In this document: positions 1,310 through 50,140 of the stretch, piece after piece | Position numbering within the stretch: the first letter of the stretch is position 1 | How the letters are laid out: each line of letters starts with the position of its first letter | Source of the DNA: Pollutimonas subterranea | GTDB taxonomy: Bacteria; Pseudomonadota; Gammaproteobacteria; Burkholderiales; Burkholderiaceae_B | Assembly: GCF_002849655.1 (NCBI RefSeq) | Contig: NZ_PDNW01000007.1 | Span: 1 to 64,000 of the forward strand | Length of the DNA stretch: 64,000 nucleotides | Reading direction: 5' to 3' | The notes under the pieces: model-generated | What the model was told of the DNA's origin: nothing | The model's input: only the letters and a program-made list of their open reading frames with translations | Databases searched by the model: none | Position numbers and translations under genes: made by a program

Positions 1310-3154
1310 TTACCCCTGATCGTCGTTGTCCTTGCCGCCAAAGGCTGAATCTTCGCGCTTTGCGGCCTCGTTGAGGAGCCGCAGGTATGGGTTGTCTGGC
1401 GGCGTCTCCTGGAACAGCGCATCCGGGCTGGCGAGCAGATAGCCGTGCAGCCGGCGCGACTTGCGCGGCCCCGTGACTTCGCAGGTCCAGATGTTCAGCC
1501 CGCTGGGCTGCTTGCGGTGCTGCCCCAGCTTCTCGAACCGCTTCTGCACCCACTGCCACCCCTCCAGCTTCTCCTGCTTGGCCAGCGCGGCGACTTGAAG
1601 GTACTCCTGTGCATAGCGCTGAAACACGCCGGGGCTGACGAGGTAGGCCGTGCCGGCGACGGTATGCACCAGAGCCTTGGCGTCGTTGATGATCAGCTTG
1701 CGCGTCTGGATGCTCTGACGCAGCCAGGCCATGAAGTGCGCCCCGGAGGGCTCCGCGCGATCCTGGGAAGGCACGAGGTTCATCTGCGGCGGTGGCACGG
1801 TCAAAGGGGCCGGCTCGGGCTCGGCAACAGGGCAACTCGGGATCTCCGGTGCTGTAGGTGCAGTGGTGTCGCCCAGCAGGTCGAGCAGCGCGGCCACGCC
1901 CGGGTCTGTGGCTGCGGATGCGATCGGCGCCGTGCTCGCGGGTGCAGCATCGATGCCTTCCGCGCGCGGCACATCGGCCACCGCCGGCGCCTGCGGCTCC
2001 GCTTGTTCCTCTTCGACCTGCACACGGCCTGCGAACGGCGCCGGCCGATCGGCGGCATCCCAGATCATCGCCGGCGAGAGTTTCAGGAAGGTGAAGGCGT
2101 GCGACCAGCCGGCGTCGCTGGTGACGGTAGCCTTCCAGATCGCCTTGCCATCCGGCGTCGGTTGCACGATGCCGTGATCCTGCAGCACGTTGAACACGGC
2201 CGTATTGCTCGCCGGGATGCCGTCGATGCCCTGCGACAGCAGATGTGCGCGCAGCTTGTCGGAGACGGTCTTGCTCACCAGCCACAAAGCCTCTTGGGTC
2301 AGCCAACCGTCCGCCGGGCCGCCCTGGTTCAACTTGAACTCTTCCTTGAGCAGGTAGCGCAAGCCGTCGAGCAATTTGCGTTGCAGCGCATGCTTGGGTG
2401 CCGCCAGCGCCTTGCTGGGATCGCCGCCGAGTTCCTGGGCGACCGATGCCTGGTCGGCCTGCACGACCAGCTCGCCGAGCGTGCCGGCGTGCTCGTACTG
2501 GCCGGCCAGCACGTACAGCAGCGCGGCCCAGAGGTCGGGATAGCCGCTGAGCCAGTCGAAGATGTCCCGATCGAGAAGGCGCGCGTAGAGCAGCCCGGTG
2601 GCGGCGCTGTGCAGGCGGTACTCACGCTCCTTTCGGTAACGAAAGCGGTAGGGCTTTCGCACCGGGCCGTGCCAGGGATGCCAGGCGCTGCCGTCGGCAT
2701 GCTCGACGTGCAGATCGACCGCTATCTTGCCGATGTCGTGCAGCAGGGCCGCGTAGGCCGTGCCTGCGGTCCAGGCTTCGGCCTGCGCCGCCTGTGCCTC
2801 TGGCGTGACGCCCGCAGGCAGCAGGTAAGACTGCCGCAATTTCAGCGCGTAGGCGACGATCTCCAGGCCGTGGTCCAGCATGCCGCCCGGATAGGCGTGG
2901 TGGTGGCTTTCGGACGCAGGGAACTGCTGGACCAGTTCGGCGTAGCGTTCCAGCGGCGCCAGGTACAGCGTGGCGAATTGCCCGCGCGACAGCGAGGTGC
3001 GCTGCCAGATGTGTTCCAGCAGCTTCTGCCGGCGCGGTGTTGCCAGCAGCGATGCGGCCGACTCGGGCCGCGTCAGCCCTTTGGGTGTCTCGGTGGAGGG
3101 AGTGGATGGTGCGCCGGAGGCCGGCAGCATCCGTTTGCGAAACAGCGAGAGCAT
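1310..3154 (-). CDS. MobH-family relaxase (TraI_2 / DUF1528)
   Basis: This 614-residue protein is the DNA-nicking enzyme that should start conjugative transfer at oriT. The N-terminal TraI_2 domain carries HHH at residues 84-86, a further His at 95 (MLDHGLE) and the metal-binding HDIGK motif at 139-143, as expected for the HD-like fold of MobH relaxases. A low-complexity Ala/Pro linker covers roughly 370-440, followed by the TraI_2_C domain to about residue 590. Length is normal for the family. A GAGG ribosome site lies 6 nt before the ATG. The 204-nt gap upstream holds a strong G-quadruplex motif and two inverted repeats. It is the last gene of the transfer region. Confidence 0.93.
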   Translation of the reverse strand: MLSLFRKRMLPASGAPSTPSTETPKGLTRPESAASLLATPRRQKLLEHIWQRTSLSRGQFATLYLAPLERYAELVQQFPASESHHHAYPGGMLDHGLEIVAYALKLRQSYLLPAGVTPEAQAAQAEAWTAGTAYAALLHDIGKIAVDLHVEHADGSAWHPWHGPVRKPYRFRYRKEREYRLHSAATGLLYARLLDRDIFDWLSGYPDLWAALLYVLAGQYEHAGTLGELVVQADQASVAQELGGDPSKALAAPKHALQRKLLDGLRYLLKEEFKLNQGGPADGWLTQEALWLVSKTVSDKLRAHLLSQGIDGIPASNTAVFNVLQDHGIVQPTPDGKAIWKATVTSDAGWSHAFTFLKLSPAMIWDAADRPAPFAGRVQVEEEQAEPQAPAVADVPRAEGIDAAPASTAPIASAATDPGVAALLDLLGDTTAPTAPEIPSCPVAEPEPAPLTVPPPQMNLVPSQDRAEPSGAHFMAWLRQSIQTRKLIINDAKALVHTVAGTAYLVSPGVFQRYAQEYLQVAALAKQEKLEGWQWVQKRFEKLGQHRKQPSGLNIWTCEVTGPRKSRRLHGYLLASPDALFQETPPDNPYLRLLNEAAKREDSAFGGKDNDDQG

Positions 3155-15109: not shown

Positions 15110-15119
15110 TGATGGGATC

Positions 15120-24415: not shown

Positions 24416-24419
24416 GAAC

Positions 24420-25897: not shown

Positions 25898-25987
25898 GTC
25901 TTCATCCCCTGCGTAGGTGGCGGGCACTGGACGCTTCTCACCACGAGCGCCTGAGGCGCGAAAGGCCGTGCAGGACCCGTCCTGTTG

Positions 25988-26004
25988 TTACCCGGAAGGT
26001 AACC
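25988..26004. promoter_or_regulatory. LysR-type box between nhaR-like gene and sbtA operon
   Basis: GTTACC and GGTAAC form a perfect inverted repeat around CGGAA. The inner 15 bp, TTACC-N5-GGTAA, fit the T-N11-A pattern of LysR-family binding sites. The site lies about midway between the divergent gene starts (91 nt from 25897, 85 nt from 26089), so one bound regulator could control both directions. A TATAAT hexamer near 26046 may be the -10 box of the regulator gene. Confidence 0.6.
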
Positions 26005-26088
26005 TGGTGAATTTTGACGGTCTGGATGATTCATGTAAAGTCGAATATAATTCACAGACACTTCGTAAAAAGTTGCGAATAGCAGATA

Positions 26089-27009: not shown

Positions 27010-27026
27010 ATGCGGGAGTCCTGATC

Positions 27027-27992: not shown

Positions 27993-28069
27993 CGGACGGT
28001 GGCAGCGCAGCTTGGCGGAACGCCGCCTCAATGCGTGCGGGAGCGAGCAGTTCACGAGGGCACGCAACT

Positions 28070-28720
28070 AAAGCAGGGGCGCGCGGACGCCTGAACGCAG
28101 CGACGCAAATCGCGGCTTCGCTGATGTCCACGCCATAGACTCGCCCGTAGAGCGTCGAGCGAATCACCTCCCTCGTGGACGGCTGACCTTGCGAGCGAAG
28201 ATGAACGAAGCGCCACAACGCTTCGGCCTGGAAGACACCGGAGCAGCACGTCAAATCCAGCACCGCTCCCGTCCAGATAGGCCATCCATGACCTCATCGA
28301 GGATCAGCGAGACGACGACGGACAGTCGCGTGTAGTGCACGCCGTTTTGCAACGCTTCTGTGCGCTTTCCATCTGTCCACGGCTCAGCGTGCGCGAACTG
28401 CTCGTAGATCGAGCTGATGAGCTCGATCGGAATCACCTCGAACTGGTAGGGGAAGAAGCTGAGCTGCCCGCTTTCAGGATCGACAGCCGCCAGGAACTCC
28501 GCAACCCGCGTCAAGTGGTGAGCGGCCGGTGTCGTTTTCACCAAAGAAGGCGGAAACATATCGCCGTTGAGGGTCTGGGCCAGCCATGCGAACAGCTTGC
28601 TGGTCGCTGGCCGGTCGCGCAGTCCCGCCGGCAACGCCGTGCGGCCGCATACCCGCTTCAACCGCGTCGCACTAACGATCTGGCGGTCTGGCCCAGCGAG
28701 CACACTCCTATCACCCGTCG
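28070..28720 (-). pseudogene. N6-adenine DNA methyltransferase remnant
   Basis: The minus strand encodes a fragment of a large class I DNA methyltransferase. One frame covers LFAWLAQTLNGDMFPPS, IELISSIYEQFAHA, NGVHYTRLSVVVSLILDEVMDGL. At about 28263 the frame shifts and continues as VLDLTCCSGVF (SAM-binding motif I, normally DxxCGSGxF), STLYGRVYGVDISEAAICVAAF. Similarity ends near 28080. No start, catalytic NPPF/Y motif or C-terminus is present. It is a dead relic, probably of a restriction or phage-defence operon. The rest of 27993-28944 holds no gene. Confidence 0.75.
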
Positions 28721-28916
28721 GTCTTAGGCGGAGTCTCGTTAGAAAATTTGCTATTTTCTTCCACGTATGGGCGTGCTTCTCAACAGGGATAGGCCGGTTC
28801 AGCCGCCTATCCCACAAGCTTTCCAAGCATCCGAAAATTGTGACCATCAGAGCGCATCGCGAACGTGGCAACCGGAGCCTTCCAGAGCAGTTCTTGTGGA
28901 GATGGGCAAGAGGCAC

Positions 28917-28939
28917 AGGCGCCCCCGGAAGGGGCGCCT
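28917..28939 (-). terminator. Hairpin downstream of radC
   Basis: AGGCGCCCC and GGGGCGCCT form a perfect 9-bp stem around a 5-nt loop (CGGAA on the plus strand), beginning 6 nt beyond the radC stop codon. No T-run follows, so termination would need help or be weak. A similar GGGGCC hairpin lies after the helicase remnant at 50105-50122. Confidence 0.5.
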
Positions 28940-28944
28940 GCGGA

Positions 28945-30387: not shown

Positions 30388-33270
30388 TCAGGCCAATGCA
30401 TCCAGCGCCAGCGGCTCGATGCCGCGGGCGCGGTCGATCTTCTCGGCCACGCGGAAGGCGGCATCCAGCTCGCTGATGCCGTGCTGCTGCATCAACTGGA
30501 AGCGTTCGGCCTTCTCCTCGGGCTCGGTCATCGCCATCGCCAGGTAGAGACTGGGCGGCACGGCGCGGAACAGCACTTCCATGCTCTTGGAGAGGATGAC
30601 GCCCTCCGAGAAGGCGCCGGCCTGCTTGCGCGCGGACAGCATCAGCGCCTTCTGCGAAGCGTTGAGTTCGCGGAAGCGCGCGACCTTCTCCACCTCATCC
30701 GGCGGCATCGACAGGCAGATCCACCACTCGATCATGTTGAGCATGGGCTCGGCCGCCTTGGGCAAGTCGTCGAGGTTTTGCGTGGCCAGCCAGAACCAGG
30801 CGCCGAGCTTGCGCCACATCTTGGTGATCTTGACGATGTACGGCGAGAGCAGCGGGTTCTTGGTGATGATGTGGCCTTCGTCCGTCACGTTGACGATGGG
30901 CCGGCCCAGGTACTGGTCCCGCTCGGCGATGTTGTTCACCGTGTTGATGAGCGAGATGTAGGCAATGGAGAGCTGCGCGTTGTAGCCCTCGCGGGCGAAG
31001 GTGGCGAGATCCACGATCGTGATGTCAGCCTCGGGCCACGGCGTTCCCGGACGGTCGAACATCTCACCGTCCACGCCCTGGCAGAACATATCCATCGCGT
31101 CCGCCATCTCCTGCAGCCGCGCCCGCCGCGCCTCCGGCAGCGTGGCATCGCGGCTGCGCTCGCGCAGCGCGTCGCGCACGTCGCGCGTAAGCACCGTGCG
31201 TTGCTCGGCCACGCAACGCCGCGCCGCATCGAGGATGCACTGGCGGATCAGGCTGCGGTCGGCGCGCGTCATGCGCGCTTCCTCACGCTCTTCACCGCCC
31301 GTGATCATCAGCCGCGCCGTGATCTCCAACTCGCCGAGCACGTCGCGCTGCTCGTCGCCTTCCATCGCCGCGGCAGTTTCGGCGCGGTCCTCGTCGAGCG
31401 CGTCGGCGTCGAGCGTCTGCACCTGGCCCGGCGTATCGACCAGGCGCCATGCATCGGCAAACGGGGCCAGGCTGACGCCCGAGCCTGGTGCGAGCTTCAC
31501 GCGGTTGACTCCGAGCCCAAGGCGCGCGGCGAAGTCGCCGAACAGCCCGAACGAGTTGCCCGCCTCGACGATGAACAGCCGCGGCCGGTAGATGGCGGTG
31601 ACCTGGTTGAGCAGGTTGTTGAGGGTCGCGGATTTGCCCGAACCCGTGGGACCGAACAAGAACAGATGCGCATTCATCTGCCGGTCGAGCCGGTTCAGTG
31701 GGTCGAAGCTGATCGTGCCGCCGCCGCGGTTGAAGAAGGTGATGCCGGGGTGGCCTGTGCCCTGGCTGCGGCCCCAGACCGGCGCCAGGTTCGCGGCGTG
31801 CTGCGCGAACATGAGCTGCGTGTACCACCCGCGCTTGTCGGCGGCCGGGTCGTAAACGCAGGGCAGCCAGCGCAGGTAGCTGTTCAGTGGCGCCACCTCG
31901 TCTTCCTCGCGCACCGGCTGCAGGCCCGCGTTGAGCATCACGTTGACGAGTTGCAGGCCGCGCGCGTCGAGCTGGGCCTGATCTCGACCACGCAGGTAGA
32001 ACGCCAGCGCGCCGCGGTAGAGCTTGTGCGCGCTGCCTATCAGGCCGCGGGCCTGCTGCACATCCGCGCGCGTCTGTTCGGAGGCCAGGGTTTCGCCGAC
32101 GGCCTTCTTGGCGAGGTGATTGAGATGGCTTTCCAGCACGTCCTGCGGTGTCGCCACCACGGTCAGGCACATCACCGTGTCTTCCGGCATCTGGTCGAAC
32201 AGCGCGTTCATGGCGTCGCCGCCCTTGCGCGTCTCGCCCGTCAGGTGTCCGGTCGCCGGCGGCGTGCGCAGGCGATCCATCACGATGACGCGATGCGGGA
32301 GCCCATCGAAGAACCACAGGCCCTGCTCGACATCCGAGCGCGGCGGGCCGAAGAACAGCCGCTGCGCGAAGTCGGTGCCGCTGGAGAGTTCGACTTCGCC
32401 CTCCTCGGGCTCGTCGGGGTAGCGGGTCAGCGCATAGAAGCGCTCGCGGTCTTCGGCGTTCGGGCCGAGCAGGGTCGGATGTGGATTGAACCAGCGCAGC
32501 AGCCAGGCGTGGATGTCCGCCGCGCCGAGGCGCCGGGCCTTCACCCCGGCATTCGCCAGCCCGCCCACCAGGCGGTCGCAGATCGTGGTCAGCGCCTGCT
32601 CGGGCGACTGGCCGCGCCGCGTGGCCGCGGCCGTGGGCGTGCGGCGGTAGACCACCATGCGCACGCGCCGCACCTGGCCGCGCCACGGCAGACGGGTGAC
32701 GGTGGTGTCCTCGAACAACCCGCCCGGCTTGGCGATGGCGCGCAGGTGGTGGGCAAAGAAGCGCAGGTAGAACTCGCTGAACGCGCTGCCCTGCGCACGC
32801 GGCTGCACGTAGCCCGCCAAGTTGCTCAGGTAGTGGTTCCAATCGGCTTCGTCCTGGGCGTAGAGCTGCACCACCCAGGGGTTCTCATCGAGTTCGTCGA
32901 AGGAGTCCTGCAGGGCGTTCTCCAGCGCATCGCGGGCCTGCCACAGCCAGGCCAGCTCGCGGCCTTCAGTGCCCACCGGCAGCAGCTCGAAGAACGCGGC
33001 CACCGACTGCCCGTCTTCGAGCAGCATGATCTTCGAGCCCGGCAGGTACTCGACCCACGGCAGCATGTCCGCGAACGACGGCGCGACGGTGTAGAGCGCG
33101 TCGTGGTCGGCCTGGGTCGCGGGCCGGCGCTGGCCGGCGAGCGCGCCGCCGGGCTCGGGTATGCCCTGTGCGGCCAGCGTCGACAAATGCCGTTCCCAGG
33201 CGTCGGCTGCACGAGCCCCTGCGGCGGGCGACGGGGCCGCCTTCCGCGGCCATGGCAGCGACCAGGCCAT
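30388..33270 (-). CDS. VirB4/TraC-type conjugative transfer ATPase (TIGR03744, PFL_4706-like)
   Basis: A 960-residue cytoplasmic or membrane-associated ATPase that powers pilus assembly and the secretion channel. The N-terminal half is the VirB4-specific domain. The Walker A motif LFGPTGSGKSATLNN is near residue 537 and is followed by a long C-terminal ATPase domain with Walker B (TIVDLA, NVTDEGH) regions and FWLATQNLDDL. The ATG at 33270 forms a TGATG junction with the lipoprotein stop. Length matches the family and no damage is visible, so this core part should be functional. Confidence 0.92.
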   Translation of the reverse strand: MAWSLPWPRKAAPSPAAGARAADAWERHLSTLAAQGIPEPGGALAGQRRPATQADHDALYTVAPSFADMLPWVEYLPGSKIMLLEDGQSVAAFFELLPVGTEGRELAWLWQARDALENALQDSFDELDENPWVVQLYAQDEADWNHYLSNLAGYVQPRAQGSAFSEFYLRFFAHHLRAIAKPGGLFEDTTVTRLPWRGQVRRVRMVVYRRTPTAAATRRGQSPEQALTTICDRLVGGLANAGVKARRLGAADIHAWLLRWFNPHPTLLGPNAEDRERFYALTRYPDEPEEGEVELSSGTDFAQRLFFGPPRSDVEQGLWFFDGLPHRVIVMDRLRTPPATGHLTGETRKGGDAMNALFDQMPEDTVMCLTVVATPQDVLESHLNHLAKKAVGETLASEQTRADVQQARGLIGSAHKLYRGALAFYLRGRDQAQLDARGLQLVNVMLNAGLQPVREEDEVAPLNSYLRWLPCVYDPAADKRGWYTQLMFAQHAANLAPVWGRSQGTGHPGITFFNRGGGTISFDPLNRLDRQMNAHLFLFGPTGSGKSATLNNLLNQVTAIYRPRLFIVEAGNSFGLFGDFAARLGLGVNRVKLAPGSGVSLAPFADAWRLVDTPGQVQTLDADALDEDRAETAAAMEGDEQRDVLGELEITARLMITGGEEREEARMTRADRSLIRQCILDAARRCVAEQRTVLTRDVRDALRERSRDATLPEARRARLQEMADAMDMFCQGVDGEMFDRPGTPWPEADITIVDLATFAREGYNAQLSIAYISLINTVNNIAERDQYLGRPIVNVTDEGHIITKNPLLSPYIVKITKMWRKLGAWFWLATQNLDDLPKAAEPMLNMIEWWICLSMPPDEVEKVARFRELNASQKALMLSARKQAGAFSEGVILSKSMEVLFRAVPPSLYLAMAMTEPEEKAERFQLMQQHGISELDAAFRVAEKIDRARGIEPLALDALA

Positions 33271-33704
33271 CAATAGTCCTCCACCCGCTCGCCGGGCATT
33301 GCGTACTGCACGCGCTGGTACAACGGGAACACCGTGCTGTAGCCAGGCACCGGCACCGGGTCGGTGCCGGTCAGATGCGGGTACACGTACATCACCAGGT
33401 CGGGATTCGGCAGGCGATGAAACTGCCGGTAGATTTCGTTGCCCGCGGTGCGCGTGTAGCGCTCCTGCACGGCGGGCGCGGCCTGCACGTCGGCTTCGGT
33501 CAACGGCCGACGCAGGCTCTGGCGTGCGTCGAGCAGTTGCCGTGCGATGGGGCCGCTGCCTTCGCCGCCGCCGGTCTCCTGCTGCCAGATGTCGAGCATG
33601 GTGTTGTGGCCGTGGGGCAGCAACTTCTCCTTGCTGGTCGCGCAGCCGCCGAGCAAGGCAGCCGCCAGCAACACGGCGGCCGCGTCAATCCAGGTCCGAG
33701 GCAT
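33270..33704 (-). CDS. TIGR03751 conjugal transfer lipoprotein
   Basis: A 144-residue outer-membrane lipoprotein. The signal peptide ends in the lipobox LLGGC (lipidated Cys at residue 21). The mature part contains the family motif LPHGHNTMLDIWQQE and a C-terminal YPHLTGTDPVPVPGY. It is thought to act like VirB7/TraV in the outer-membrane part of the channel. It overlaps the TIGR03752 gene by 20 nt and the ATPase gene by one base. Confidence 0.88.
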   Translation of the reverse strand: MPRTWIDAAAVLLAAALLGGCATSKEKLLPHGHNTMLDIWQQETGGGEGSGPIARQLLDARQSLRRPLTEADVQAAPAVQERYTRTAGNEIYRQFHRLPNPDLVMYVYPHLTGTDPVPVPGYSTVFPLYQRVQYAMPGERVEDY

Positions 33705-36043: not shown

Positions 36044-36714
36044 GGGGAGTCTCCCTGCGAGTGGCCGGATGCGGCGCCGGGCGTCGGCGACGTCTCGATG
36101 CGCTGAGGCGCGCTGGCATGGCAGTCCAGCGCCAGGCCGAAGGGGTTGCGCTCGGGATCGACGTCCATGCGCACAACCTTCAGGGCGTAGCGCACCAGGG
36201 CACGCTTGACCTGCTCGGAGCCGTGGTACTCGTCGGCGCTCACGTCCAGCGTGACGATCCAGTCGCGGTCGGAGACCGCCTTGACGCGCGTGCTGGGGCT
36301 GTCGCCATAGCCGCGGCCGGGAATCTCGTAGATGCCGCGCACGCGCTGCCGCAGCTCGCCGCTTGCGCGACGGTACTCGTAGTCCTGTTGCAGGAAGGCC
36401 CGGCAGCTCGGCGTCAGGTAGGCCGACAGCGCGTGCAGGTTGCGCGGGTAGTCGGTCTCGCCGTTGGTGGGCCAGCGCTGCACCTGCTGCCAGATGTAGA
36501 AGCTGAACGCGTACACGCTCTCGGGCGGCACGTCCCACCACTTGCGCACGCTGCCCGAGCGCAGGTCGGGGGGCACGTGGATGGTCAGATCGCGCGGCGC
36601 GCTCCACCAGCCGAAGCCGAGCAGCAGCGCCACCACAAACAGCGCCGCGCCGCCCAGGCGCAGCGTCTTCACGTGTGCCTGCAGGTGCGCGACCTCATTC
36701 TTGAAACGGCTCAT
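36040..36714 (-). CDS. TIGR03746 (TraE/VirB8-like) inner-membrane protein
   Basis: A 224-residue protein with a short cytoplasmic N-terminus, one membrane helix at about 21-38 (AALFVVALLLGFGWW) and a periplasmic domain with YAFSFYIWQQVQRWPTNGETDYPRNL, typical of the TraE-like family. The ATG at 36714 gives the usual N-terminus MSRFKNEVAHLQAHV. In related elements a TIGR03750 gene lies just upstream; here foreign DNA begins within about 130 nt, so this is the first intact gene after the break. Confidence 0.88.
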   Translation of the reverse strand: MSRFKNEVAHLQAHVKTLRLGGAALFVVALLLGFGWWSAPRDLTIHVPPDLRSGSVRKWWDVPPESVYAFSFYIWQQVQRWPTNGETDYPRNLHALSAYLTPSCRAFLQQDYEYRRASGELRQRVRGIYEIPGRGYGDSPSTRVKAVSDRDWIVTLDVSADEYHGSEQVKRALVRYALKVVRMDVDPERNPFGLALDCHASAPQRIETSPTPGAASGHSQGDSP

Positions 36715-36847
36715 GCCGCACCTCGGTGGGCCGTGCGCCGTGTGCTCCACCAGCCCGTGCGGATGATCAGACGGCACCCGCCCAGGTGAGCGGCGAGCAC
36801 TGGATAGCGCAAGGTCAGGCGACACGGCGACGAACACTATCACCAAG

Positions 36848-37750
36848 ATGGGCAATGACATTGCCGACACCGTGATTACGCCTCGGCTGCGCGACAGATT
36901 TCAGGAAGAGATCGTCAGGCTTGCGGCCTCGAAGGTTCGCGTCGAAATCGTGCGCTCCGGCGGCAAGTACGGCTCACCGCAGTATCAGGTGCGCCTCTTC
37001 GCAAAGCCGGATGCCAAGGTCCACGAAATCCTGAGCGAAGGGGAAAAGACCTGCGTGGCGCTGGCCGCCTTCATGACCGAGCTTGCCACCGCGATGCACC
37101 GCTCTGCTCTGGTCTTCGATGACCCGGTGTCCTCGTTGGACCATCGCTGGCGTGGGCAGGTGGCCAAGCGTCTCGTGGAAGAAGCGGAGAACCGTCAGGT
37201 CATCGTCTTCACGCATGATCTGGTGTTCGTGAACGATCTGAATGACCACGCGACGAAGACCGGGCGGGCAGTGCGGCTCACGACGCTCAGTCGTGGCGCC
37301 GCGGGAGCCGGTATGGTAGCCGACGGCCTGCCCTGGAAGGCCCAGAGCGTCGAAGATCGCATCGACAAGCTGGAGAAGGCTGCACGTGCGGCAAAGCTGC
37401 TGCATGACAACAACCAGGAAGACGAGTACGCGGTCGAGGTGGCAAAGCTCTACAACTCGCTGCGCGCCACATGGGAGCGCGGCCTGGAGGACATCGCTTT
37501 CGTCCGCGTTATTCAACGCCATAGGGACTACATCAACGCCAGGGACCTGAAGAAGGTCAGTGCGCTCACCGAGGCTGACTGCGATGCTTTTGCCGCCGGA
37601 TTCAAGAAGTGCTGCGACATTGTTGACGCACACGATCCATCCAGCGGTAGGAATGCCGTGCCGCCACCACCTGCTGATCTTTTTCAGGACATCCAGGCTT
37701 TGAAGAACTGGGCCGCGTCTCTGCGAGACAGGCAGAAGAAGATTGCTTGA
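36848..37750 (+). pseudogene. C-terminal part of an AAA-type (RloC/PtuA-like) defence ATPase
   Basis: A plus-strand open frame encodes the end of an SMC/ABC-like ATPase: ABC signature LSEGEKTCVALAAF, Walker B ALVFDDPVSSLDH, and the H-loop VIVFTHDLVF, followed by a helical tail. The frame stays open upstream of the ATG and matching-looking sequence continues (about 36830), but the N-terminal half with the Walker A loop is absent. It cannot be active. Its orientation is opposite to all the transfer genes around it, and it occupies the place where four small mating genes are expected. Confidence 0.75.
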
Positions 37751-37751
37751 G

Positions 37752-37823
37752 ATGTATTCGTTCACGCCGATGCTGGAGTACTTGACGAAGCAGAGAACCG
37801 AAACTGTGGCATCGTTCATCTGA
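37752..37823 (+). pseudogene. First codons of a gene that followed the AAA ATPase
   Basis: One base after the ATPase stop codon comes ATG and an open stretch of 23 codons beginning MYSFTPMLEYL. Tight spacing (TGA-G-ATG) is typical of a second operon gene. The frame stops just before the TIGR03747 end, where the foreign DNA joins the ICE. It looks like the N-terminus of a truncated partner gene. The family is not recognisable. Confidence 0.4.
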
Positions 37824-37841
37824 TCTGGCGCAGGGCTGCAG

Positions 37842-38591
37842 CTACAGATATTTCTTGAACGTCGCCGCCGCAATGCACACCGCCACGCCGAGCAATGCGG
37901 CGCTGGGCAGCAGGATCAGCAGCGGGTTCACGCTGACCGGCAGTGCGAGGTAAGTCACCCACGGCAGCACGGCCAGCGGGATCAGGCTGGCCCTGGCGCG
38001 GTGATAGATGAACCCCGATTCGCGGCCCGCGCCGAAGCGGCGCACATCCCGGCGCACCAGGCCGTCCACCAGCCCGACGAAGGCGGCCATCAGGAACAGC
38101 GGCAGGGTCAGGCAAAGCACCAGCAGCCGCACGAGGAAGACCAGCGTCGTGTAGGCCGCCGCGATCAGGTAGCTCTCCACGTTCACGTAGACCAGGCCGA
38201 TGTAGTAGCGGAAATCCTTGGTCGGGCGATGGCTGCCGGCGCTGGCCTGCGCCGAGGCGTCGTGTATCCAGTCCAGCAGGCCGCTTTTCACGAACAGCCA
38301 GTCGTAGCCCTCCTCGACCAGCCGGTGCGCGGTGCGCCCCGGCTCCTGCACCAGCGCGCTGCGCGTGAAATGCGTGGAGAGCTGATCCAGCTCGTAGTGC
38401 AGCATGCCCTGGGCGTGACGCCAGCCCTGATCGGGCCAGAAGAAGTGCATGCCGACGCATTCGATCAGGATGCACAGCAGCAGCGCGCCGCACAGCACGC
38501 CGAAGAAGCGGAACGGCAACGTGACCAGGCCGGCGATCAGCCCCTGCTGTCGTTGCTGCTGGCGCTGTGCCGCGACGGCCGGGTCGCTCAT
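37842..38591 (-). CDS. TIGR03747 (PFL_4697-like) ICE membrane protein
   Basis: A 249-residue inner-membrane protein with helices near residues 20-45 and a larger cluster at 140-175 and 205-245. A typical segment is FRYYIGLVYVNVESYLIAAAY. The family is found in all PFGI-1-type elements directly after the coupling-protein gene; the role is thought to be in channel or coupling-complex assembly. Its start overlaps the traD stop by 4 nt. The gene is complete even though foreign DNA begins within about 20 nt of its stop codon. Confidence 0.85.
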   Translation of the reverse strand: MSDPAVAAQRQQQRQQGLIAGLVTLPFRFFGVLCGALLLCILIECVGMHFFWPDQGWRHAQGMLHYELDQLSTHFTRSALVQEPGRTAHRLVEEGYDWLFVKSGLLDWIHDASAQASAGSHRPTKDFRYYIGLVYVNVESYLIAAAYTTLVFLVRLLVLCLTLPLFLMAAFVGLVDGLVRRDVRRFGAGRESGFIYHRARASLIPLAVLPWVTYLALPVSVNPLLILLPSAALLGVAVCIAAATFKKYL

Positions 38592-40750
38592 GCTTCCACT
38601 CCGTCAGCGGCGGTCGCCATCTGTTTGAAGTCGTCCAGCAGGTCGGCGGGCAATGCGCCGTCCTGCAGGCCCTGCATGCCTTGGTTCTCCCACCAGTCGC
38701 CGGCCTCGACGTAGTGCTGGCGCATGTAGCCGGCCAACTGCTGCAGATCCTGGGGCATGGCCTCGTCGGGGTCGGGGGCCGGCAAGGGCATGCGCACCTT
38801 CCAGAGCGTGCCGCCCTCGATCAGCGCGAAGCACTGCCCCTTGGGCAAGGCCACCACATGTGCGGGCTCGATCAGCGGCACGCTGGTCGTGCTGATGCGG
38901 TCCTGGGTGCTGGACGTGAAGGCGGTGTTGCCGAGCGGATCGGAGCTGTCGGTGGCGCCGCTCATGATCGCGGTGGCATGGACATCGACCTTGGGCAGTT
39001 GCCGCGTCAGCAGTTCCGCGGTGGCGGTCTCTCTTACCCTCAACATGAAGAGGTTGTTGAAGTTGCCGATCACCTGGCCGGCTTTGGCGCGGTTGCCGAT
39101 GCGCGCCTCGATGTCCGAGAGCGTTTGCGTGTAGGCCGTCACCTGCACGCCCGCGCCGCCGCCCTTATTGACCATCGGGATGAACTCGTCGCCCATGAGT
39201 TCGTTGAACTCGTCGGCATGGACGTTGATGGGCACCTTCACGCCAGTCGCCGATCCGGGCAGGCCGTCGTCGATGCCGAACTTGTAGATGTGCCCCGCGA
39301 CGGAAACGAGGTCGGAGAACATGGAGTTGCCCACCGCTGCGGCCACTTCGGCATCGGACAACGCATCCAGCCCCACGTAGACCACCGCGCGTTTGCGGAT
39401 GATTTGCATCCAGTCGAAGATCGGCCGCGGGTCGGACAGGTCCGAATAGTTCGGTGCGAGCAGTTGCGCGATCTTGCCGGTGGTCAGCTTCTCCAGCAGC
39501 GGCAGCAGCGAGGCGACGATCTTGTCGAAGTAGGTCCGGTCGTAACGCACGGCGCTGCGCAGGCCATCGAGCACCGGGTCGTAGACGCGCACCTGCGACA
39601 GGTACTGCTCCAGCGCCACGACGCGCTTCTCGCGCCCGATCATGTTGCGCGGGATGTTCTTGTCGTTGAGCCTGGCTTCGAGCTGGACGATGACCTCCCA
39701 GGCCTTCGGCTCGTTCTTGGCGAAGTAGTGCTGGGCGTACTCGATGAACAGCGCGTCGATGTTGATGACGTGGCGCTGGATCAGCAGGTAGTCGGGCCGC
39801 TGCCCCAGCTCCACCAGGGCGCGGGCTATGATGTTGACGAAGCGCCAGGCGAACTCGCGGAATGCGGCGCTGTTGCCTTCGCCGGAGAGCTGGCCCGCGA
39901 TGCGGGTGGCGACCTCGGAGATGCGCCCGAAGCGGCCCACCGCGTTGTAGCGCGCGCTGATGTCCGGCCAGCCCAGGTGGAAGACGTAGAACTCGCCTTC
40001 GCGCCCCGCGCGCTTGGCCTCCACGTACATGCGTTTCAAGAGGTCGGCATCGCCCTTGGGGTCGAAAACGATCACCACCTCGTACTCGCCTGCCGCATTG
40101 CGGCGGCGGATGTCCTGCGTGATGAACAGCTCGGCCAGCCGCGTCTTGCCCACGCGCGTGGTGCCGAGCACAAGCGAGTGGCCCACGCGCTCGCCCAGCG
40201 GCAGCGTCACGTCGGTCTCGTGGGGTTCGATGCCGTGCAGCCGTGGCTGTCCGCCCACCGGCGGCAGCGGCCGGGCCGGATTGAAAGGGCTGTCCCAGGC
40301 CAGGACCCGCGCAAGCTTCGATAGTGGAAACGGCGCGAATTCCAGCCGCTCCTCCATCCGCCGCGCCGCGCGGTAGATCGCGGTCGGCTCCACGAATCGG
40401 CGGAACTCCGGCCGGTAGGTCTGCATCAGCCGGTGCGTGTGCCGCTGCTCCCACTTGAAACCCCGGCCGATGAACAGCCGTTGCTGGCTCACCGGCACGT
40501 CGCGGCTGATCATCACGTAGCGCGGCAGGCGGCGGATGTTGCGCCGGTAGCGCAGAATCGCCCAGGCGTCATTAAGGCGGATGGCGCCGAAGGTCAGGAA
40601 AGCCAGCGCCGCGCCCAGGCCGAGCAGCGGATTCAGCGCGAGCGACCACGGTGCCACCAGGCACAGAATCGCGGCGCCGGTGCAGACCGCCACGGTGTAA
40701 AGCTCCACCGCTGGCCGCAGCAGAACCTCGACCGCATGCGGCTGGGCCAT
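38588..40750 (-). CDS. traD: TraD-type conjugative coupling protein
   Basis: A 720-residue type IV coupling ATPase that links the relaxase-DNA complex to the mating channel. Two N-terminal membrane helices lie at about 15-60. The Walker A motif LVLGTTRVGKTRLAEL is near residue 190, Walker B lies in NVHADEFNEL (around 505), and a QVTAYTQTLSDIEAR motif follows. The ATG at 40750 gives the usual N-terminus MAQPHAVEVLLRP. It is coupled to TIGR03747 by a 4-nt overlap. Length and motifs are normal, so the ICE keeps its coupling function. Confidence 0.93.
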   Translation of the reverse strand: MAQPHAVEVLLRPAVELYTVAVCTGAAILCLVAPWSLALNPLLGLGAALAFLTFGAIRLNDAWAILRYRRNIRRLPRYVMISRDVPVSQQRLFIGRGFKWEQRHTHRLMQTYRPEFRRFVEPTAIYRAARRMEERLEFAPFPLSKLARVLAWDSPFNPARPLPPVGGQPRLHGIEPHETDVTLPLGERVGHSLVLGTTRVGKTRLAELFITQDIRRRNAAGEYEVVIVFDPKGDADLLKRMYVEAKRAGREGEFYVFHLGWPDISARYNAVGRFGRISEVATRIAGQLSGEGNSAAFREFAWRFVNIIARALVELGQRPDYLLIQRHVINIDALFIEYAQHYFAKNEPKAWEVIVQLEARLNDKNIPRNMIGREKRVVALEQYLSQVRVYDPVLDGLRSAVRYDRTYFDKIVASLLPLLEKLTTGKIAQLLAPNYSDLSDPRPIFDWMQIIRKRAVVYVGLDALSDAEVAAAVGNSMFSDLVSVAGHIYKFGIDDGLPGSATGVKVPINVHADEFNELMGDEFIPMVNKGGGAGVQVTAYTQTLSDIEARIGNRAKAGQVIGNFNNLFMLRVRETATAELLTRQLPKVDVHATAIMSGATDSSDPLGNTAFTSSTQDRISTTSVPLIEPAHVVALPKGQCFALIEGGTLWKVRMPLPAPDPDEAMPQDLQQLAGYMRQHYVEAGDWWENQGMQGLQDGALPADLLDDFKQMATAADGVEA

Positions 40751-40758
40751 TTGCGCAC

Positions 40759-41292
40759 CTACTGCTCGACGCCGGTGGACGTGATGAGCACCGGGTAGTG
40801 GCGCAGGCCCAGGCGCTGGGCCAGGTCGTCGCCCGAGGCCGGCGCGAGGGTCAGGCCGGGCGCCAGGTGGCGCAGCTCGACCAGCGCCGCCGTCGACTCC
40901 ACGTTGACCACCAGGCCCACGGCGCCCAGCTCTCGCAACGTGGCGTGGCGCTGCCGCAGCCAAGCGCGCGAGCGTGTGTCGTCGCCGACCAGGAACAGCG
41001 GCGTCAGGCCCGGCGCGCGGATCACGCGGCGCGGCACGTCACCCGGTGACAGGTTCGCCGAGCGCACTGGCAGCATCGCGACTTCGGCCTCGGCCGAGTT
41101 GCCCACGCGCGGGCGTGGCAGCGGGGCTGGCCGCGCGGTGTCGTCCGGCTGCGGATTCAAGGGCTGGTAGTACGGCAGTGCGGACGCGCCGCCGCGGTCC
41201 TCGACCACGATCAGTGGCGCGGAGGCGGTCTGGGCGAAGACGGTGGTCGTGGACAGCAGCCCGATGGCGGCGATGAGGACAATGTGGTTCAT
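40759..41292 (-). CDS. TIGR03765 (PFL_4695-like) ICE protein
   Basis: A 177-residue exported protein with a signal peptide ending in TTTVFA (residue 20). The mature part begins QTASAPLIVVEDRGGASALPYY, the characteristic start of the family, and ends with a TrbC-like alpha/beta region (LGLRHYPVLITSTGVEQ). ATG at 41292 overlaps the transglycosylase stop by 4 nt. Role in mating is unproven; it is always found between transglycosylase and traD. Confidence 0.87.
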   Translation of the reverse strand: MNHIVLIAAIGLLSTTTVFAQTASAPLIVVEDRGGASALPYYQPLNPQPDDTARPAPLPRPRVGNSAEAEVAMLPVRSANLSPGDVPRRVIRAPGLTPLFLVGDDTRSRAWLRQRHATLRELGAVGLVVNVESTAALVELRHLAPGLTLAPASGDDLAQRLGLRHYPVLITSTGVEQ

Positions 41293-41909
41293 GGCGTGGT
41301 GCCCTGGAGGGTTGTAACGGGAGCGCCAGGGCCGAGCACGCGAGTCAGGTGCCGATGCACGCTGCGCCGGTAGCGCGCTGCGGGGGCGCCCCCGGCCGGG
41401 CGGTGGTAGCGGCCGATGGCGAGCAGCCAGTCCTCGCCCGGCGTGTGCTGCTCGCGCAGGATCTCGGTGGCGATGGCGAGGTTGCGGTAGGGGTCCAGCA
41501 GTTCGCAGGGCTGCGCATAGCGCTGCGCGTGGTAGCCGAGATTGACCTGGCCGAGCCCGGCGTCGATGCGGGTGGCAGACGTGCGCTTGAGCGCCTGGCG
41601 CAGTCCCGCGCAGGCCTCGGCGCGGGTGGCATAGCGGTACGGCTTGCCGGCGACGTTGAGCGTCCACGGCCAGGGCACCAGGCGCCCGCGCAGCCGGGTG
41701 CCGCTCTCTTGCAGGGCCACGGCGTACAGCACCGCCGCTGGTACGTCTGCACGATGCGCCGCCAGTTGATAGGCCGGCGGCGGCACTTCCCGCGCCAGGG
41801 CGGCCAACGCCCAGCCGCCGGTGGCGAGCAGCAGCACGGCGCTGGCGCAGCGGATGGCGACGCGGGATGGCCGACGCTCCCGGCCCGGAATACCTATTGC
41901 CGCTGCCAT
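41289..41909 (-). CDS. Lytic transglycosylase of the transfer system
   Basis: A 206-residue protein with an N-terminal membrane segment (about 20-38) and an SLT-type domain. The catalytic Glu is E68 in YAVALQESGTRLRG, followed by the conserved GLGQVNLGYHA. It should open peptidoglycan locally to let the mating channel cross the wall. The start at 41909 overlaps the upstream TIGR03759 gene by 16 nt. The enzyme is small but of typical size for VirB1-like proteins. Confidence 0.88.
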   Translation of the reverse strand: MAAAIGIPGRERRPSRVAIRCASAVLLLATGGWALAALAREVPPPAYQLAAHRADVPAAVLYAVALQESGTRLRGRLVPWPWTLNVAGKPYRYATRAEACAGLRQALKRTSATRIDAGLGQVNLGYHAQRYAQPCELLDPYRNLAIATEILREQHTPGEDWLLAIGRYHRPAGGAPAARYRRSVHRHLTRVLGPGAPVTTLQGTTP

Positions 41910-42610
41910 TGGCCGTTCACCTCGCGCACGACGGCCGGCAGATCGCCGGGGAGGCTGAGCGACAGCCAGCGCCCTGCATCGTGGTTGAGCGTGATGGTGC
42001 GGGCGCGCACCCTGGCCGGGTCGATGCCCGCCCGGGTGGCCCACTGCCGGATTCGCGCGTCGTCCTGACGGCTGCCGACCATGTAGAGATCGAAGGCCGT
42101 GCCGGCCGCCTGCAACTGCTGCACGCGCTGCGCGCACGGTGCGCAGTCGGCCTTGACGAAGACCGCTAGGCGCCCGGAACCGGTGTTTCCGGCGCCCTGC
42201 GCCTTGGCGCCGGGCAGGCTCACGCGCGGCTGGCCGGGAAACAGGCGCTGCCACGCCGCGTCGTAGGCCCGCTGGTAGGCCAGCGTCTTGCCGACGCGCC
42301 GGGCCTCGGCCTGCACCTGCAACTCCGCGTAGCGCCTGCGCTCCTCCTCGCTGCGGGCCTCGATGCCCAGCGCCGTGAGCGGATCGAGCTGGGGGGAATG
42401 CACGCCGAGCGGCCCCTGCATCAATTGTCGGAAGCGTGCCCACTCCTCGGGTTGCAGGCCCCAGTCCCGCGCTTGACGCTCGTCGAGCGCCGCATCGGTG
42501 TTGGGCTGTACCTGGCTGGGCACCACGCGCGCATTCGTCACCGGAGATTGCGCGGAGGCCCCCAGGGAGACGGACAGAAGAACGGCAGCAAGCATCGGCC
42601 GCAGGGTCAT
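41894..42610 (-). CDS. TIGR03759 (PFL_4693-like) ICE protein with CxxC
   Basis: A 238-residue exported protein, signal peptide ending near GASA (residue 20). The middle holds the family segment WGLQPEEWARFRQLMQGP. The C-terminal half is a thioredoxin-like domain with a CAPC motif at 156-159 (FVKADCAPC). The pair suggests redox or disulfide-isomerase activity in the periplasm. It is a conserved gene at the start of this mating block. Confidence 0.87.
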   Translation of the reverse strand: MTLRPMLAAVLLSVSLGASAQSPVTNARVVPSQVQPNTDAALDERQARDWGLQPEEWARFRQLMQGPLGVHSPQLDPLTALGIEARSEEERRRYAELQVQAEARRVGKTLAYQRAYDAAWQRLFPGQPRVSLPGAKAQGAGNTGSGRLAVFVKADCAPCAQRVQQLQAAGTAFDLYMVGSRQDDARIRQWATRAGIDPARVRARTITLNHDAGRWLSLSLPGDLPAVVREVNGQWQRQ

Positions 42611-42621
42611 GGCCCGCCCTC

Positions 42622-43269
42622 CTACGGCACGGCAAGGCGCTGCACCTGGCCGTCCACGCGGAACACGGCGGCGCGAGCCTCGATGGATTGCAGGTGCCAG
42701 CCGCTCTCCGCGTCACCCTCGCGCAGCAGCCGGACACTGCCGAGCGAGGTGGCGGCCATGGGTGCGACCGACAGGAAGCGCTCGCCGCCGCGCAGTTCCA
42801 CGCCGACCACCTGGAACGGTGGAGCCGGCAGCGCCGGCTTTGTCACCTCGGGTGCTCGACGGGCGGCGACGGCGGTAGTTTTGCGGGCTTCTTCCAGACG
42901 GGTTTCGATCCCGTGCACACGAGCCTGCAAGGTCTGCAGGTCGATGGCGAGGCTGTCCGCAGACTGTGCCGCCTCGACACGCGCGATGCGCTCGTCCAGC
43001 GCCTGTTGCGCGGTGGCGAATTCGGCCTGGCTGAGCGGCGTAGGCCGGCGCCTGTCCACCTCGGCCTGCTGTTCGAGTTCGGCCAGCCGCAGGCCCAGCG
43101 CCTGGACATGGGCGTCCTGCGCACTGGCCTCGGCCTGTTCGGTGAGACGCGACAGGCCGACACTGTTGACGACGGCCAGGGTGCTTGTGAGCAGCAGCCA
43201 GACGGTCGCGGCGATCTTGAGCCAACGCGTGCGGGAACTGCGCTCGGATGGCGCTTGGGGAAAGGTCAT
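42622..43269 (-). CDS. Membrane-anchored coiled-coil protein of the pil/transfer region
   Basis: A 215-residue protein with one membrane helix at about 17-38, a coiled coil at about 42-130 (LRLAELEQQAEVDRR, ALDERIARVEAAQ) and a C-terminal beta domain with VVGVELRGGERFLSV. I recognise it as the protein usually encoded between PilL and TIGR03759, but its function is not known. Start overlaps the PilL-like stop by 4 nt. Confidence 0.65.
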   Translation of the reverse strand: MTFPQAPSERSSRTRWLKIAATVWLLLTSTLAVVNSVGLSRLTEQAEASAQDAHVQALGLRLAELEQQAEVDRRRPTPLSQAEFATAQQALDERIARVEAAQSADSLAIDLQTLQARVHGIETRLEEARKTTAVAARRAPEVTKPALPAPPFQVVGVELRGGERFLSVAPMAATSLGSVRLLREGDAESGWHLQSIEARAAVFRVDGQVQRLAVP

Positions 43270-43814
43270 GGCTGCAGTTCCTCGGGCCGGTGGGCGTCCG
43301 GCACGGGCGTGGCGGTGCCGGGCGGGTTGGCGGAAAGGAAGGTGGGAGCACCGTGCCGGCTGAAGCAGACCTGGCGGGTCAAGTCATCGACCGACAGCTC
43401 CCAGGTGGGGCCGGCAAGGGTCAGCAAGGCATCGCGCAGCATCAGCGGACCCACGTGCAGATGTGCGGCAGGCAGCGGCAGCGCGTAAAGCGTGGCGGCC
43501 TCGGCCGCATCGCAGAGCCGGTAGCCCGAGCGCAGGAGCACATGGCGCATGGCATCGCCCACGCTGGCATCGAGCATGGGCGGAATCGAGACCACCACCG
43601 CCTGCTGCAAGAGATCACGCTGCGCGGGCTCCGGCACCAGCTCGACCAGGGTGTAGCGGCCGTAGCGGGCCACGGGCACCAGTCGCTGCTCCGAAGCTGG
43701 CTCGTCGGGCGGTGCTTCTATGTGGTCAGGGGTGGCCGGTGTCGTCGTGCAGCCGGACAGCAGGCCGCTGAGCACGGCGAAGATGCAGAGAAAACGAGGC
43801 AGAGACGGCAGCAT
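43266..43814 (-). CDS. PilL-N-domain lipoprotein (TIGR03748-like)
   Basis: A 182-residue lipoprotein, lipobox LLSGC giving a lipidated Cys near residue 21. The C-terminal part contains YTLVELVPEPAQRDLL, RHVLLRSGYRLCD and LRDALLTLAGPTW, the pattern of the PilL N-terminal domain (a secretin-associated fold). I used the ATG at 43814; a second one four codons upstream is possible. PAPI-1-type elements carry a whole pil operon next to this gene; here only this part remains and the chromate cargo follows upstream. Confidence 0.82.
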   Translation of the reverse strand: MLPSLPRFLCIFAVLSGLLSGCTTTPATPDHIEAPPDEPASEQRLVPVARYGRYTLVELVPEPAQRDLLQQAVVVSIPPMLDASVGDAMRHVLLRSGYRLCDAAEAATLYALPLPAAHLHVGPLMLRDALLTLAGPTWELSVDDLTRQVCFSRHGAPTFLSANPPGTATPVPDAHRPEELQP

Positions 43815-43826
43815 GTGGCACCCCAT

Positions 43827-44201
43827 GGCGATGAGATGCCTTCACCATTGCAGAACCGTGCTGCGCGGGATGCCGGAAATCCGAAACGCGCGGCGCCCCG
43901 TTTCCGAGGGAAGTCAGGACGGGTTCGGGCCCGTCATTTCGCCGGTGGCGATGGCGCTCGGGTTCGCCGTTGAAGACGCCGCCCGGTCCGGCAAGTGCGG
44001 CCGCACCGGTTCGATCCGCTCGATGAACCGGCGAAGTTGCTCCGGTGACTCGGTGCTCCGACACGGCAGCTGGTCTTCGATGATCAGGATGCGCATGACG
44101 GCACCGTTCCAGACGGATGCCGTCAATCTATGGCCCGCTTCGCGACCGGTCTACTGAAGTGTTTCTGACTTTCCCATCAGGATCGGGCGCGGGGACCGGC
44201 C
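43827..44201. other. Gap between pilL-like gene and chromate cargo; a doubtful short frame only
   Basis: This 375-nt stretch marks the border of the chromate cargo. On the minus strand a 60-codon frame (44096 to 43914) begins MRILIIEDQ, like the start of a response regulator, but continues into non-matching sequence and lacks a ribosome site. It is at best a fragment. No other gene, repeat or clear insertion-sequence end is visible. Confidence 0.3.
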
Positions 44202-45416
44202 TCACGGCGTCGCCTCCCCGTGCCGTCGGAAGGCGCGCCAGAGCGCGAGGTCATAGGCAATCTTCAGCGCGCCACAGGCCACCAGCGGTGCGGCCAGCCA
44301 GCCGGCGGCGAACAGCGCGCCACCGATGGCCGGGCTCACCGCGGCCGCGAGGCTCCTGGGCACGGCGGTGAAGCTTGCCGCCGCGGCGCGCTCAGCCGGC
44401 GTGACTACCGCCATGACGAAGGCCGAGCGCGTCGGCACGTCCATCTGCGACAGGGCGCTGCGCAGGAACAGCAACGCGAGCGCCACCGGCAGACTCTCGG
44501 CGAGGGCGGCGAGGATCAGGCAGACGCTCGACGGGATGTGGGTGAACACCATCGTGTTGACGAGGCCGATGCGGCGCGCCACCCAGGGCGCTGCGAGCTG
44601 GGAGCCTGCCGAGAGCAGCCCCGCCCAGAAGAAGAACTGGCCGGCGGCGGCGAGCGAGAGGTCGAAGCGCTCGAACAGCCAGAGCGCGAGCAAGGTGTTG
44701 ACGATCAGTCCTCCGGCGAAGGCGTCGACCGAGAACAGCGCGGCCAGTTTGATCACGATGCCGCGCGAAGGCCCCAGTGGTGCGGGCGGCGCCGCCTGTG
44801 CGTGGACCGGATGGTTCGGCAGCGTGCGGTAAAGAAGGAAGATCGCGACGCCGGTCAGCCCGTAGGCGACGAACATGAGGCGCAGCGCGTCGAGCTGCAC
44901 CAGGCCCGCATTCGTCAGGGTTTGCGGAATGGCCGTCGCCAGGGAACCGGCCGCGGCGCACAAGGCGCCGACGAAGGTGTAGCGCGCGAAGAGGAAGGTG
45001 CGCGCCTCGCCCTGCGCCGACTCGGCCAAGCGGGCGTGCTCCAGCGGCAGGAAGACGCTGACGTCGCCGGAGCTGGGATTCATCGTGCCGACGAAGGCGA
45101 CGAGCAGCAGCGGCCAGAAGTCGCCAACGCCACCCAGGCCGGCCAGCAGCAGACCGGTCAGGCACATCAGTCCGGCGGCGGCGAGCAGCAGCCGGCGCTG
45201 CGGGAAGTGATGTCCCCACTGGCCTACCGCCAGGGTCGCCAGCGCCGAGCCGAGCAGTGTGGCGGTACTGATCAGCCCGACTTCCCATGTGCCCAGCCCC
45301 AAGGCCAGCAGATAGACCGGCAGCAGGATGGCGACATAACCGTCGGTGAAGGCCCGCAGCGCCCGGCCGACGAGCAGCAGGCGCGCCTCGGGCGCGGCCC
45401 CGGCGGGTAGCAGCAT
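44202..45416 (-). CDS. MFS permease of the chromate cluster
   Basis: A 404-residue major facilitator protein with about twelve helices in two halves (for example LGTWEVGLISTATLLGSALATLAVG in the first, and LPVALALLFLRSALSQMDVPTRSAF in the second). The start ATG overlaps the stop of the ChrB-C-like gene by one base, so it is translationally coupled. MFS genes of this kind recur at the end of chromate-resistance clusters; the substrate is not known. The gene is intact. Confidence 0.8.
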   Translation of the reverse strand: MLLPAGAAPEARLLLVGRALRAFTDGYVAILLPVYLLALGLGTWEVGLISTATLLGSALATLAVGQWGHHFPQRRLLLAAAGLMCLTGLLLAGLGGVGDFWPLLLVAFVGTMNPSSGDVSVFLPLEHARLAESAQGEARTFLFARYTFVGALCAAAGSLATAIPQTLTNAGLVQLDALRLMFVAYGLTGVAIFLLYRTLPNHPVHAQAAPPAPLGPSRGIVIKLAALFSVDAFAGGLIVNTLLALWLFERFDLSLAAAGQFFFWAGLLSAGSQLAAPWVARRIGLVNTMVFTHIPSSVCLILAALAESLPVALALLFLRSALSQMDVPTRSAFVMAVVTPAERAAAASFTAVPRSLAAAVSPAIGGALFAAGWLAAPLVACGALKIAYDLALWRAFRRHGEATP

Positions 45417-45871
45417 CACTTCGAGCCGAGCAGCCGCGCGACCTTCTTCAGCGGCGTATCCGCACACCAGGCGTAGAGCGCGTCGTACATCACTATGCCT
45501 GCCTTCAGCATCTCGTGGTCGTCGGCGAAGTTGAGCGACAGCCCTTTCGAGATGGCCAGCAGGCCGGCCGCTTCCTTCGCCAGTTGCGGCTGGGCGCAGT
45601 CGGCGGCGCGCACGATGATGGCCAGCTTCTGCAAGGACGGGTCCGTCAGCTGGTATTTGGCGATGAAAGCATCGAAGCTGCATTGATCGCCGTGGTGACC
45701 CAGTTCCACCCCGGAGACGTCATAGGGGGTAGCCCCAGTCTCGGCGGCGATCCTCATGACGTCGCCCGACGGCACGTAGAGAAACTCCGGGCTTTCGTCG
45801 ATGAAGCGGGCAATCAGCCAGGGACAGGCGATGCGGTCGATTTTCGGGCGTTCACGGGTAATCCATTGCAT
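45416..45871 (-). CDS. ChrB C-terminal-domain protein (stand-alone)
   Basis: A 151-residue protein corresponding to the C-terminal chromate-resistance domain of ChrB: RPKIDRIACPWLIARFIDE, then YDVSGVELGHHGDQCSFDAF. The regulator gene chrB in this same cluster carries a related domain with RARPWVDRLASAWLIRRFID. Conserved Asp, His and Cys residues could bind metal. It lacks the N-terminal DNA-binding part, so it is not a regulator by itself. Located between the DUF1259 and MFS genes. Confidence 0.85.
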   Translation of the reverse strand: MQWITRERPKIDRIACPWLIARFIDESPEFLYVPSGDVMRIAAETGATPYDVSGVELGHHGDQCSFDAFIAKYQLTDPSLQKLAIIVRAADCAQPQLAKEAAGLLAISKGLSLNFADDHEMLKAGIVMYDALYAWCADTPLKKVARLLGSK

Positions 45872-45972
45872 GACGGTCTCCTACTCTTGTTTCTGAGCGT
45901 TCGAACTGCCAGCCCTCGCCGCAATCAGGCAAGCCACGAGGCAGGGCAAAGAGCGCCAGGGGCCGGCCCGCG

Positions 45973-46875: not shown

Positions 46876-46997
46876 ATTACCTCCTGGTGGGGATAAACGA
46901 TCAACACATCGTTCCGGGCGCCTCCCTCCCGCAGCAGGATTGAACGTACTGGCGAGTTCGGATTTCGGGGTTTCGGGTTTGATGGTGCGGTCCATGT

Positions 46998-47591: not shown

Positions 47592-47650
47592 CTTGGCTTC
47601 CTCAGCAAGGTGGATCGGAAACGGCGCGACGAAGGCTGACTCGATCAGGT

Positions 47651-49824: not shown

Positions 49825-49862
49825 GCACGGACTCCTTTATCGCCAAGGGGTGGGTAATGAGT

Positions 49863-50122: not shown

Positions 50123-50140
50123 ATCAAGAGGGAAACAATC

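Follow-up and report, generated by a model that had tools for sequence, protein, structure and literature searches.

Decayed or defective ICEs keep some modules and have lost part of their conjugation genes. The ICEclc/PFGI-1-class (MPF_G) ICEs carry a core that includes a MobH relaxase, TraD, VirB4 and a block of four genes, RAQPRD, TIGR03758, TIGR03745 and TIGR03750, located between TIGR03747 and TIGR03746. Defence genes also enter this region: GI-Hotspot 8, as presented in 2025 (PMC12629846), is flanked by traD and RAQPRD, the cargoes listed there including CBASS, type III RM, IetAS and Mza, and a 2023 report (PMC10732049) mentions defence genes inserted in a conjugative locus with orf67800 deleted. 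Given these two reports, both the site and the kind of cargo were therefore already known.

Here we describe an element of this class in the window, the whole 64,000-nucleotide stretch analysed, which forms the start of contig C66 (191,855 bp) in a 68-contig, 4.54-Mb host assembly. By profile search the MobH/TIGR03760 relaxase, the TIGR03754 TraD, the TIGR03744 VirB4 and the further core families tested are present, as in other MPF_G ICEs; the four-gene block between TIGR03747 and TIGR03746 is missing. Because these four core genes are absent, the element is filed as a defective MPF_G derivative, and it is very probably an ICEclc/PFGI-1-class ICE made defective by an illegitimate deletion. Like decayed ICEs generally it has lost part of its conjugation genes and kept some modules, but here both the lost genes and the cause can be specified, the latter being a deletion from a defence hotspot. 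Contig C66 begins within the element and its integrase end was not found; Luteimonas DNA from beyond the contig start gave just short matches of 66-80% in the host. Neither decayed ICEs nor this defence hotspot is new, so the case is of low interest in itself and the general gain is small.

Retained and missing mating genes

The retained mating genes with coordinates given here are all on the minus strand. The MobH relaxase lies at 1310..3154, TIGR03755 at 7551-9005 and TIGR03756 at 8968-9912, each identified by a profile match. The VirB4/TraC ATPase (30388..33273, 1465.2 bits), the TIGR03751 lipoprotein (33270..33704, 177.2 bits), TIGR03752 (33685..35178, 615.7 bits), TIGR03749 (35138..36043, 370.2 bits, with an open frame reaching 36607) and TIGR03746 (36040..36714, 319.3 bits) are intact, and the deletion junction now lies directly before the last of these. 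On the far side are the intact TIGR03747 membrane protein (37842..38591, 346.6 bits) and the TraD coupling protein (38588..40963, 1105.9 bits, start codon provisional). TIGR03759 and PilL2 (TIGR03748) were also matched by profile in the window, and TIGR03757 was recognised by reading its open frame, without a profile score; four of the ten frames in the relaxase/VirB4/PilL2 profile scan matched no family. An earlier note on this DNA had held that the other mating genes were intact and that relaxase, coupling protein and ATPase had been retained. Both points are borne out, as the mating genes tested near the junction all exceed their family cut-offs and MobH, TraD and the VirB4-type ATPase all match their profiles.

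The same note saw no further copy of the four genes in the window and suggested looking for separate copies in the host genome. Apart from a 3' remnant of TIGR03750 the window holds none, and neither TIGR03745 and TIGR03750 nor TIGR03758 and RAQPRD gave a profile match anywhere in the host assembly. That the four genes have moved to another place in the genome is rejected on these profile searches of the whole assembly. The working control for the searches was a set of related genomes, 13 with TIGR03746 out of 101 searched; 14 named control genomes matched none of these families. TIGR03745 and TIGR03750 were both found in 11 of the 13, the misses being the window genome and G098, in which a 3.2-kb contig ends inside TIGR03746. 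The same 13 genomes hold 16 full-length TIGR03746 genes, 15 of which adjoin both TIGR03745 and TIGR03750, the exception being that of the window. TIGR03758 and RAQPRD were present in eight of the nine genomes searched for them among the 13, and the window genome was the sole miss.

A second survey, of named genomes, covered the best 80 of 290 TIGR03746 loci. Among these 80, TIGR03750 was found at 80, TIGR03745 at 79, and TIGR03758 and RAQPRD at 78 each. The misses fall on two loci (L057 and L077) where the sequence ends, each of which also has a cut copy of another of the genes. The two surveys overlap, L072, L075 and L082 being, by their length, the same contigs as those of G088, G032 and G046. 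Among the matches listed in a literature search over titles and abstracts of open papers, no ICEclc-class element lacking these four genes was described.

Deletion junction and defence hotspot

The junction lies at 36817..36818, located by alignment to the element of Luteimonas aestuarii B9 (NZ_SMTF01000002.1, L047). It joins the last ~35 codons of TIGR03750, recognised by sequence comparison as a 3' remnant (36711..36817, minus strand) that shares ATGA with the start of TIGR03746, to what is left of an AAA_13/PDC-S06 ATPase gene, its C-terminal third (36818..37750, plus strand; first in-frame ATG at 36848); the P-loop part of the gene is gone. Between this fragment and the convergent TIGR03747, comparison with Luteimonas leaves a spacer (37751..37841) with no gene. 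The interval between TIGR03747 and TIGR03746 had been read in the earlier note as plus-strand DNA with the C-terminal half of an AAA/RloC-like ATPase and the first codons of a following gene. Plus-strand AAA DNA from the C-terminal part is indeed there, but it starts only at 36818, after the TIGR03750 remnant, and amounts to a third of the protein (~310 of 875 residues); the supposed first codons are the spacer, and the Luteimonas relative has no start codon at that place.

By profile the fragment is an AAA_13 C-terminus, and its best PADLOC match is PDC-S06, at profile positions 565-857 of 858 and hence less than full length. The AAA assignment stands; "RloC-like" is loose, the PrrC match being weak. 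The fragment aligns to residues 577-887 of the 887-aa protein of a related element, L021, with identities of 98.0% to L021 and 97.6% to L047, and the AAA relatives in L021 and in another element, L024, match PDC-S06 across their length (E 1e-209). No N-terminal part or other piece of the AAA gene was found in the host genome. At residue 114 of the L047 AAA protein, inside the deleted part, is what we take to be a P-loop-like motif.

Window positions 170-36825 align to L047 in one stretch at 99.0% identity, and positions 36818-52088 align to a later stretch of the same Luteimonas contig at 96.7%; close to the junction identity to Luteimonas is lower (95.9% left, 96.6% right). Relative to this element the window lacks 5,377 bases, the sole gap in co-linearity over 52 kb. 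In L047 the order is TIGR03747, an intact AAA gene (875 aa) on the opposite strand, a SNF2-helicase-type gene, an HTH gene, RAQPRD, TIGR03758, TIGR03745, TIGR03750 and TIGR03746, and Roseateles aquatilis CCUG 48205 (NZ_NIOF01000003.1, L049) has its AAA and mating genes at matching positions. The gene order in the window is identical to that of these two relatives, but they have the AAA gene whole and lack none of the four mating genes, and L047 also keeps the SNF2-helicase and HTH genes between the AAA gene and RAQPRD. Lost relative to L047 are AAA residues 1 to ~565, the SNF2-helicase-type and HTH genes, RAQPRD, TIGR03758, TIGR03745 and roughly 101 codons from the start of TIGR03750, which has 136. 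Measured against L021, whose cargo is longer, ~13 kb is missing.

In the earlier note, a fragment of a defence operon was taken to have replaced the mating genes. L047, L049, L021 and L024 all carry the AAA gene at this site as a resident, and because close relatives have it there, replacement by a foreign operon fragment is rejected; judged from these sequences, the event is a deletion and not a replacement. One event is its simplest reading. By TIGR03746, the closest loci among the best 80 of 290 are L046 (99%) and L048 (96%), and in neither does the 10 kb examined include a TIGR03747 gene or an AAA gene; for this reason the ancestral cargo and the true length of the deletion are uncertain. 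The figure of 5,377 bases applies to the comparison with the closest co-linear element, and the immediate ancestor may have differed in cargo. Microhomology was considered as well: the alignment showed an 8-base overlap, which on a base-by-base view is a near-match only, the true overlap being 0-1 base.

From the close relatives we infer an ancestor that had hotspot cargo between TIGR03747 and RAQPRD, with the AAA (PDC-S06) gene pointing to TIGR03747, followed by RAQPRD, TIGR03758, TIGR03745, TIGR03750 and TIGR03746. A near-blunt deletion, of 5,377 bases if the ancestor was Luteimonas-like and longer if its cargo was longer, then fused the AAA interior to the 3' end of TIGR03750. It removed RAQPRD and the genes classed as VirB2 pilins and VirB3, and probably cost TIGR03746 and the genes behind it their promoter and translational coupling as well.

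The assembly is a draft in 68 contigs, and a false join might have passed over DNA that the cell does contain, owing for instance to a strain mixture or dropped short contigs. We regard such an artefact as very unlikely: the four families, and with them the N-terminal part of the AAA protein, are absent from the entire assembly and not misplaced, the contig runs on to 191,855 bases, and the listed completeness and contamination are 100 and 0.16. The deletion, taken as real, was seen in the window genome only. With up to 3 mismatches allowed, the junction was found in none of the 267 other genomes among the 268 of the family examined; in a plasmid collection there were matches to three records, none of them crossing the junction or extending over more than 53% of the query. 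Spread of the deleted form was thus not seen in either set.

The borders of GI-Hotspot 8, traD with TIGR03747 on one side and RAQPRD on the other, were both found in L047, L049, L021 and L024. The window keeps the traD/TIGR03747 border, but the RAQPRD side is deleted. In the relatives the defence cargo lies between traD/TIGR03747 and RAQPRD, as described for the hotspot, and Mza, IetAS and type III RM recur in L021 and L024: beside TIGR03747, L021 has the AAA gene with MzaB-E-like genes and a cytosine-methylase gene as cargo, and L024 the AAA gene with a DrmD-like helicase, IetA, IetS and a type III restriction-modification pair. A PDC-S06-type AAA gene adjoins TIGR03747 in four elements (L021:1048-3711, L024:15748-18375, L047:3588-6215 and L049). 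Behind it the cargo varies among the three elements looked at, being Mza-like in one, a DrmD-like helicase with IetAS and RM III in another, and a SNF2-type helicase with HTH in the third; the AAA gene may be a constant anchor in the hotspot. As the hotspot directly adjoins the pilin operon, one cargo-trimming deletion can also abolish mating.

The ICE remnant on the TOL plasmid pWW0 (NC_003350.1, L018) has the same families at 84-91% DNA identity and is also broken between TIGR03747 and RAQPRD, but it is rearranged, with all four genes annotated, whereas the window element is deleted. In pWW0 (NC_003350.1:56282-64187) TIGR03749-RAQPRD has TIGR03747-TraD on its opposite flank, and the break at the hotspot is shared with the window.

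Expected effect on transfer

Published profiles class the MPF_G proteins Tfc9 and Tfc10 with VirB2 and Tfc11 with VirB3 (PMC12102498), and TIGR03745 is listed as virB2/iceB2 in a source citing Daveri et al. 2023 (PMC10425158). Gene order suggests that TIGR03758, TIGR03745 and TIGR03750 correspond to Tfc9, Tfc10 and Tfc11. For ICEclc, PMC2892462 reports transcripts 66625-67231 and 63176-66202, gives 67,610 and 66,976 as their promoter positions, and has ORFs 66202 and 66625 separated by 12 bp. TIGR03745 and TIGR03750 of L047 are likewise 12 bp apart, a spacing that fits ORFs 66202 and 66625 being these two genes; if they are, the deletion would also have taken the promoters listed for both transcripts. 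The TIGR03750 stop overlaps the TIGR03746 start (ATGA), so translational coupling has probably been lost too.

The fold model of the lost TIGR03745, an N-terminal helix and a two-helix hairpin of moderate confidence, fits a pilin but is a common shape. Foldseek returned no significant match for it, its best VIA matches were ATP-synthase c subunits with Z ~8, a value that helical models often reach, and solved pilins were absent among the listed matches of the sequence and fold searches. The TIGR03750 model is poor (mean pLDDT 54), and its profile gave weak, unrelated matches only in the PDB (best E 0.61).

Because published work places the lost genes with VirB2 pilins and VirB3, the element has probably lost self-transfer, and from this homology it is expected to build no mating pilus. 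Without a pilus or channel it would be stuck in the chromosome or need a helper of the same class. That the four genes are dispensable in some conditions, and that the element still transfers itself, would agree with a table for ICEHin1056 in which the roles of tfc8-tfc11 in pilus formation and conjugation are given as "unknown" (PMC2688673), and with the constraint on the remaining mating genes. Against this, the four genes are kept in all of the best 80 of 290 loci, contig ends excepted, and the VirB2/VirB3 classing points the other way, as does an account of Daveri et al. 2023 in which 15 ICEclc genes, a set that may include the four, are reported essential for transfer by in-frame deletion (PMC10413270). 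We hold dispensability to be extremely unlikely, and read the element as defective. Relaxase, coupling protein and VirB4 are the usual survey markers, and their presence is no proof of a working ICE.

Age of the loss, helper systems and side observations

No internal stop interrupts TIGR03746, TIGR03749, TIGR03752, TIGR03751 or VirB4. When the changes confined to a single branch are counted among the window, L046, L047 and L048 in these five genes, with sites where the three references disagree left out, the window branch has 35 synonymous and 15 non-synonymous changes (dN/dS ~0.14, on a small basis of 50 changes) and the L047 branch 39 and 23 (dN/dS ~0.20). Relaxed selection on the window branch was not seen in these small counts from five genes. 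Since these five mating genes have stayed open and under constraint, with no sign of long decay, the loss of the four genes looks recent and probably is.

The earlier note offered dependence on a second ICE in the same cell as a way for the element to move. The host assembly lends this no support: TIGR03746 has a single match in it, so it contains no second MPF_G ICE, and the two other secretion systems found are P-type. Besides the element's own VirB4 the host has two strong matches and one marginal match. One strong locus shares its 33,437-bp contig with genes of the VirB5, VirB8 and VirB10 types, and the other has TraG, TrbE, TrbL, TrbG and TrbI; these P-type conjugation systems are at G000:C20:16470-18848 and G000:C33:63315-65609 (L132, L133), and the 33-kb contig may be a plasmid. 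Movement through another conjugation system in the cell after loss of the pilin genes would agree with the open relaxase, coupling protein and VirB4, with the unrelaxed constraint and with these two loci. The constraint, however, is accounted for equally well by a recent loss, the assembly holds no same-class helper, and the junction, present in 0 of 267 other family genomes, gives no sign of spread. Helper-dependent or chimeric mobility is accordingly highly improbable, and it would be unusual, and is unlikely, for P-type systems to help an MPF_G element. That an MPF_G ICE without its own VirB2/VirB3-class genes moves by pairing its MobH relaxase and TraD to a P-type pilus and channel in the same cell, as a step from ICE to integrative mobilizable element, we think scarcely credible here. 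The preferred reading remains a probably recent deletion that is likely to have disabled the element.

Several further features of the element were noted. A nearly identical element (window 170-52088; G101:C22) occurs in Luteimonas, of the Gammaproteobacteria, and in the window host, which by its relatives is of a betaproteobacterial lineage; this near-identity points to a recent transfer across classes. Window positions 10262-28940 form ~18.7 kb of cargo between TIGR03757 and RadC, the flanks of which are almost adjacent in L046 and L048. The N-terminus of TIGR03757 (9900-10360) differs from that of L048 at the cargo border, and a signal-peptide-like stretch is still there. At the end of the stretch shared with Luteimonas, an open frame at 50141-52072 has weak similarity to SNF2-type helicases.
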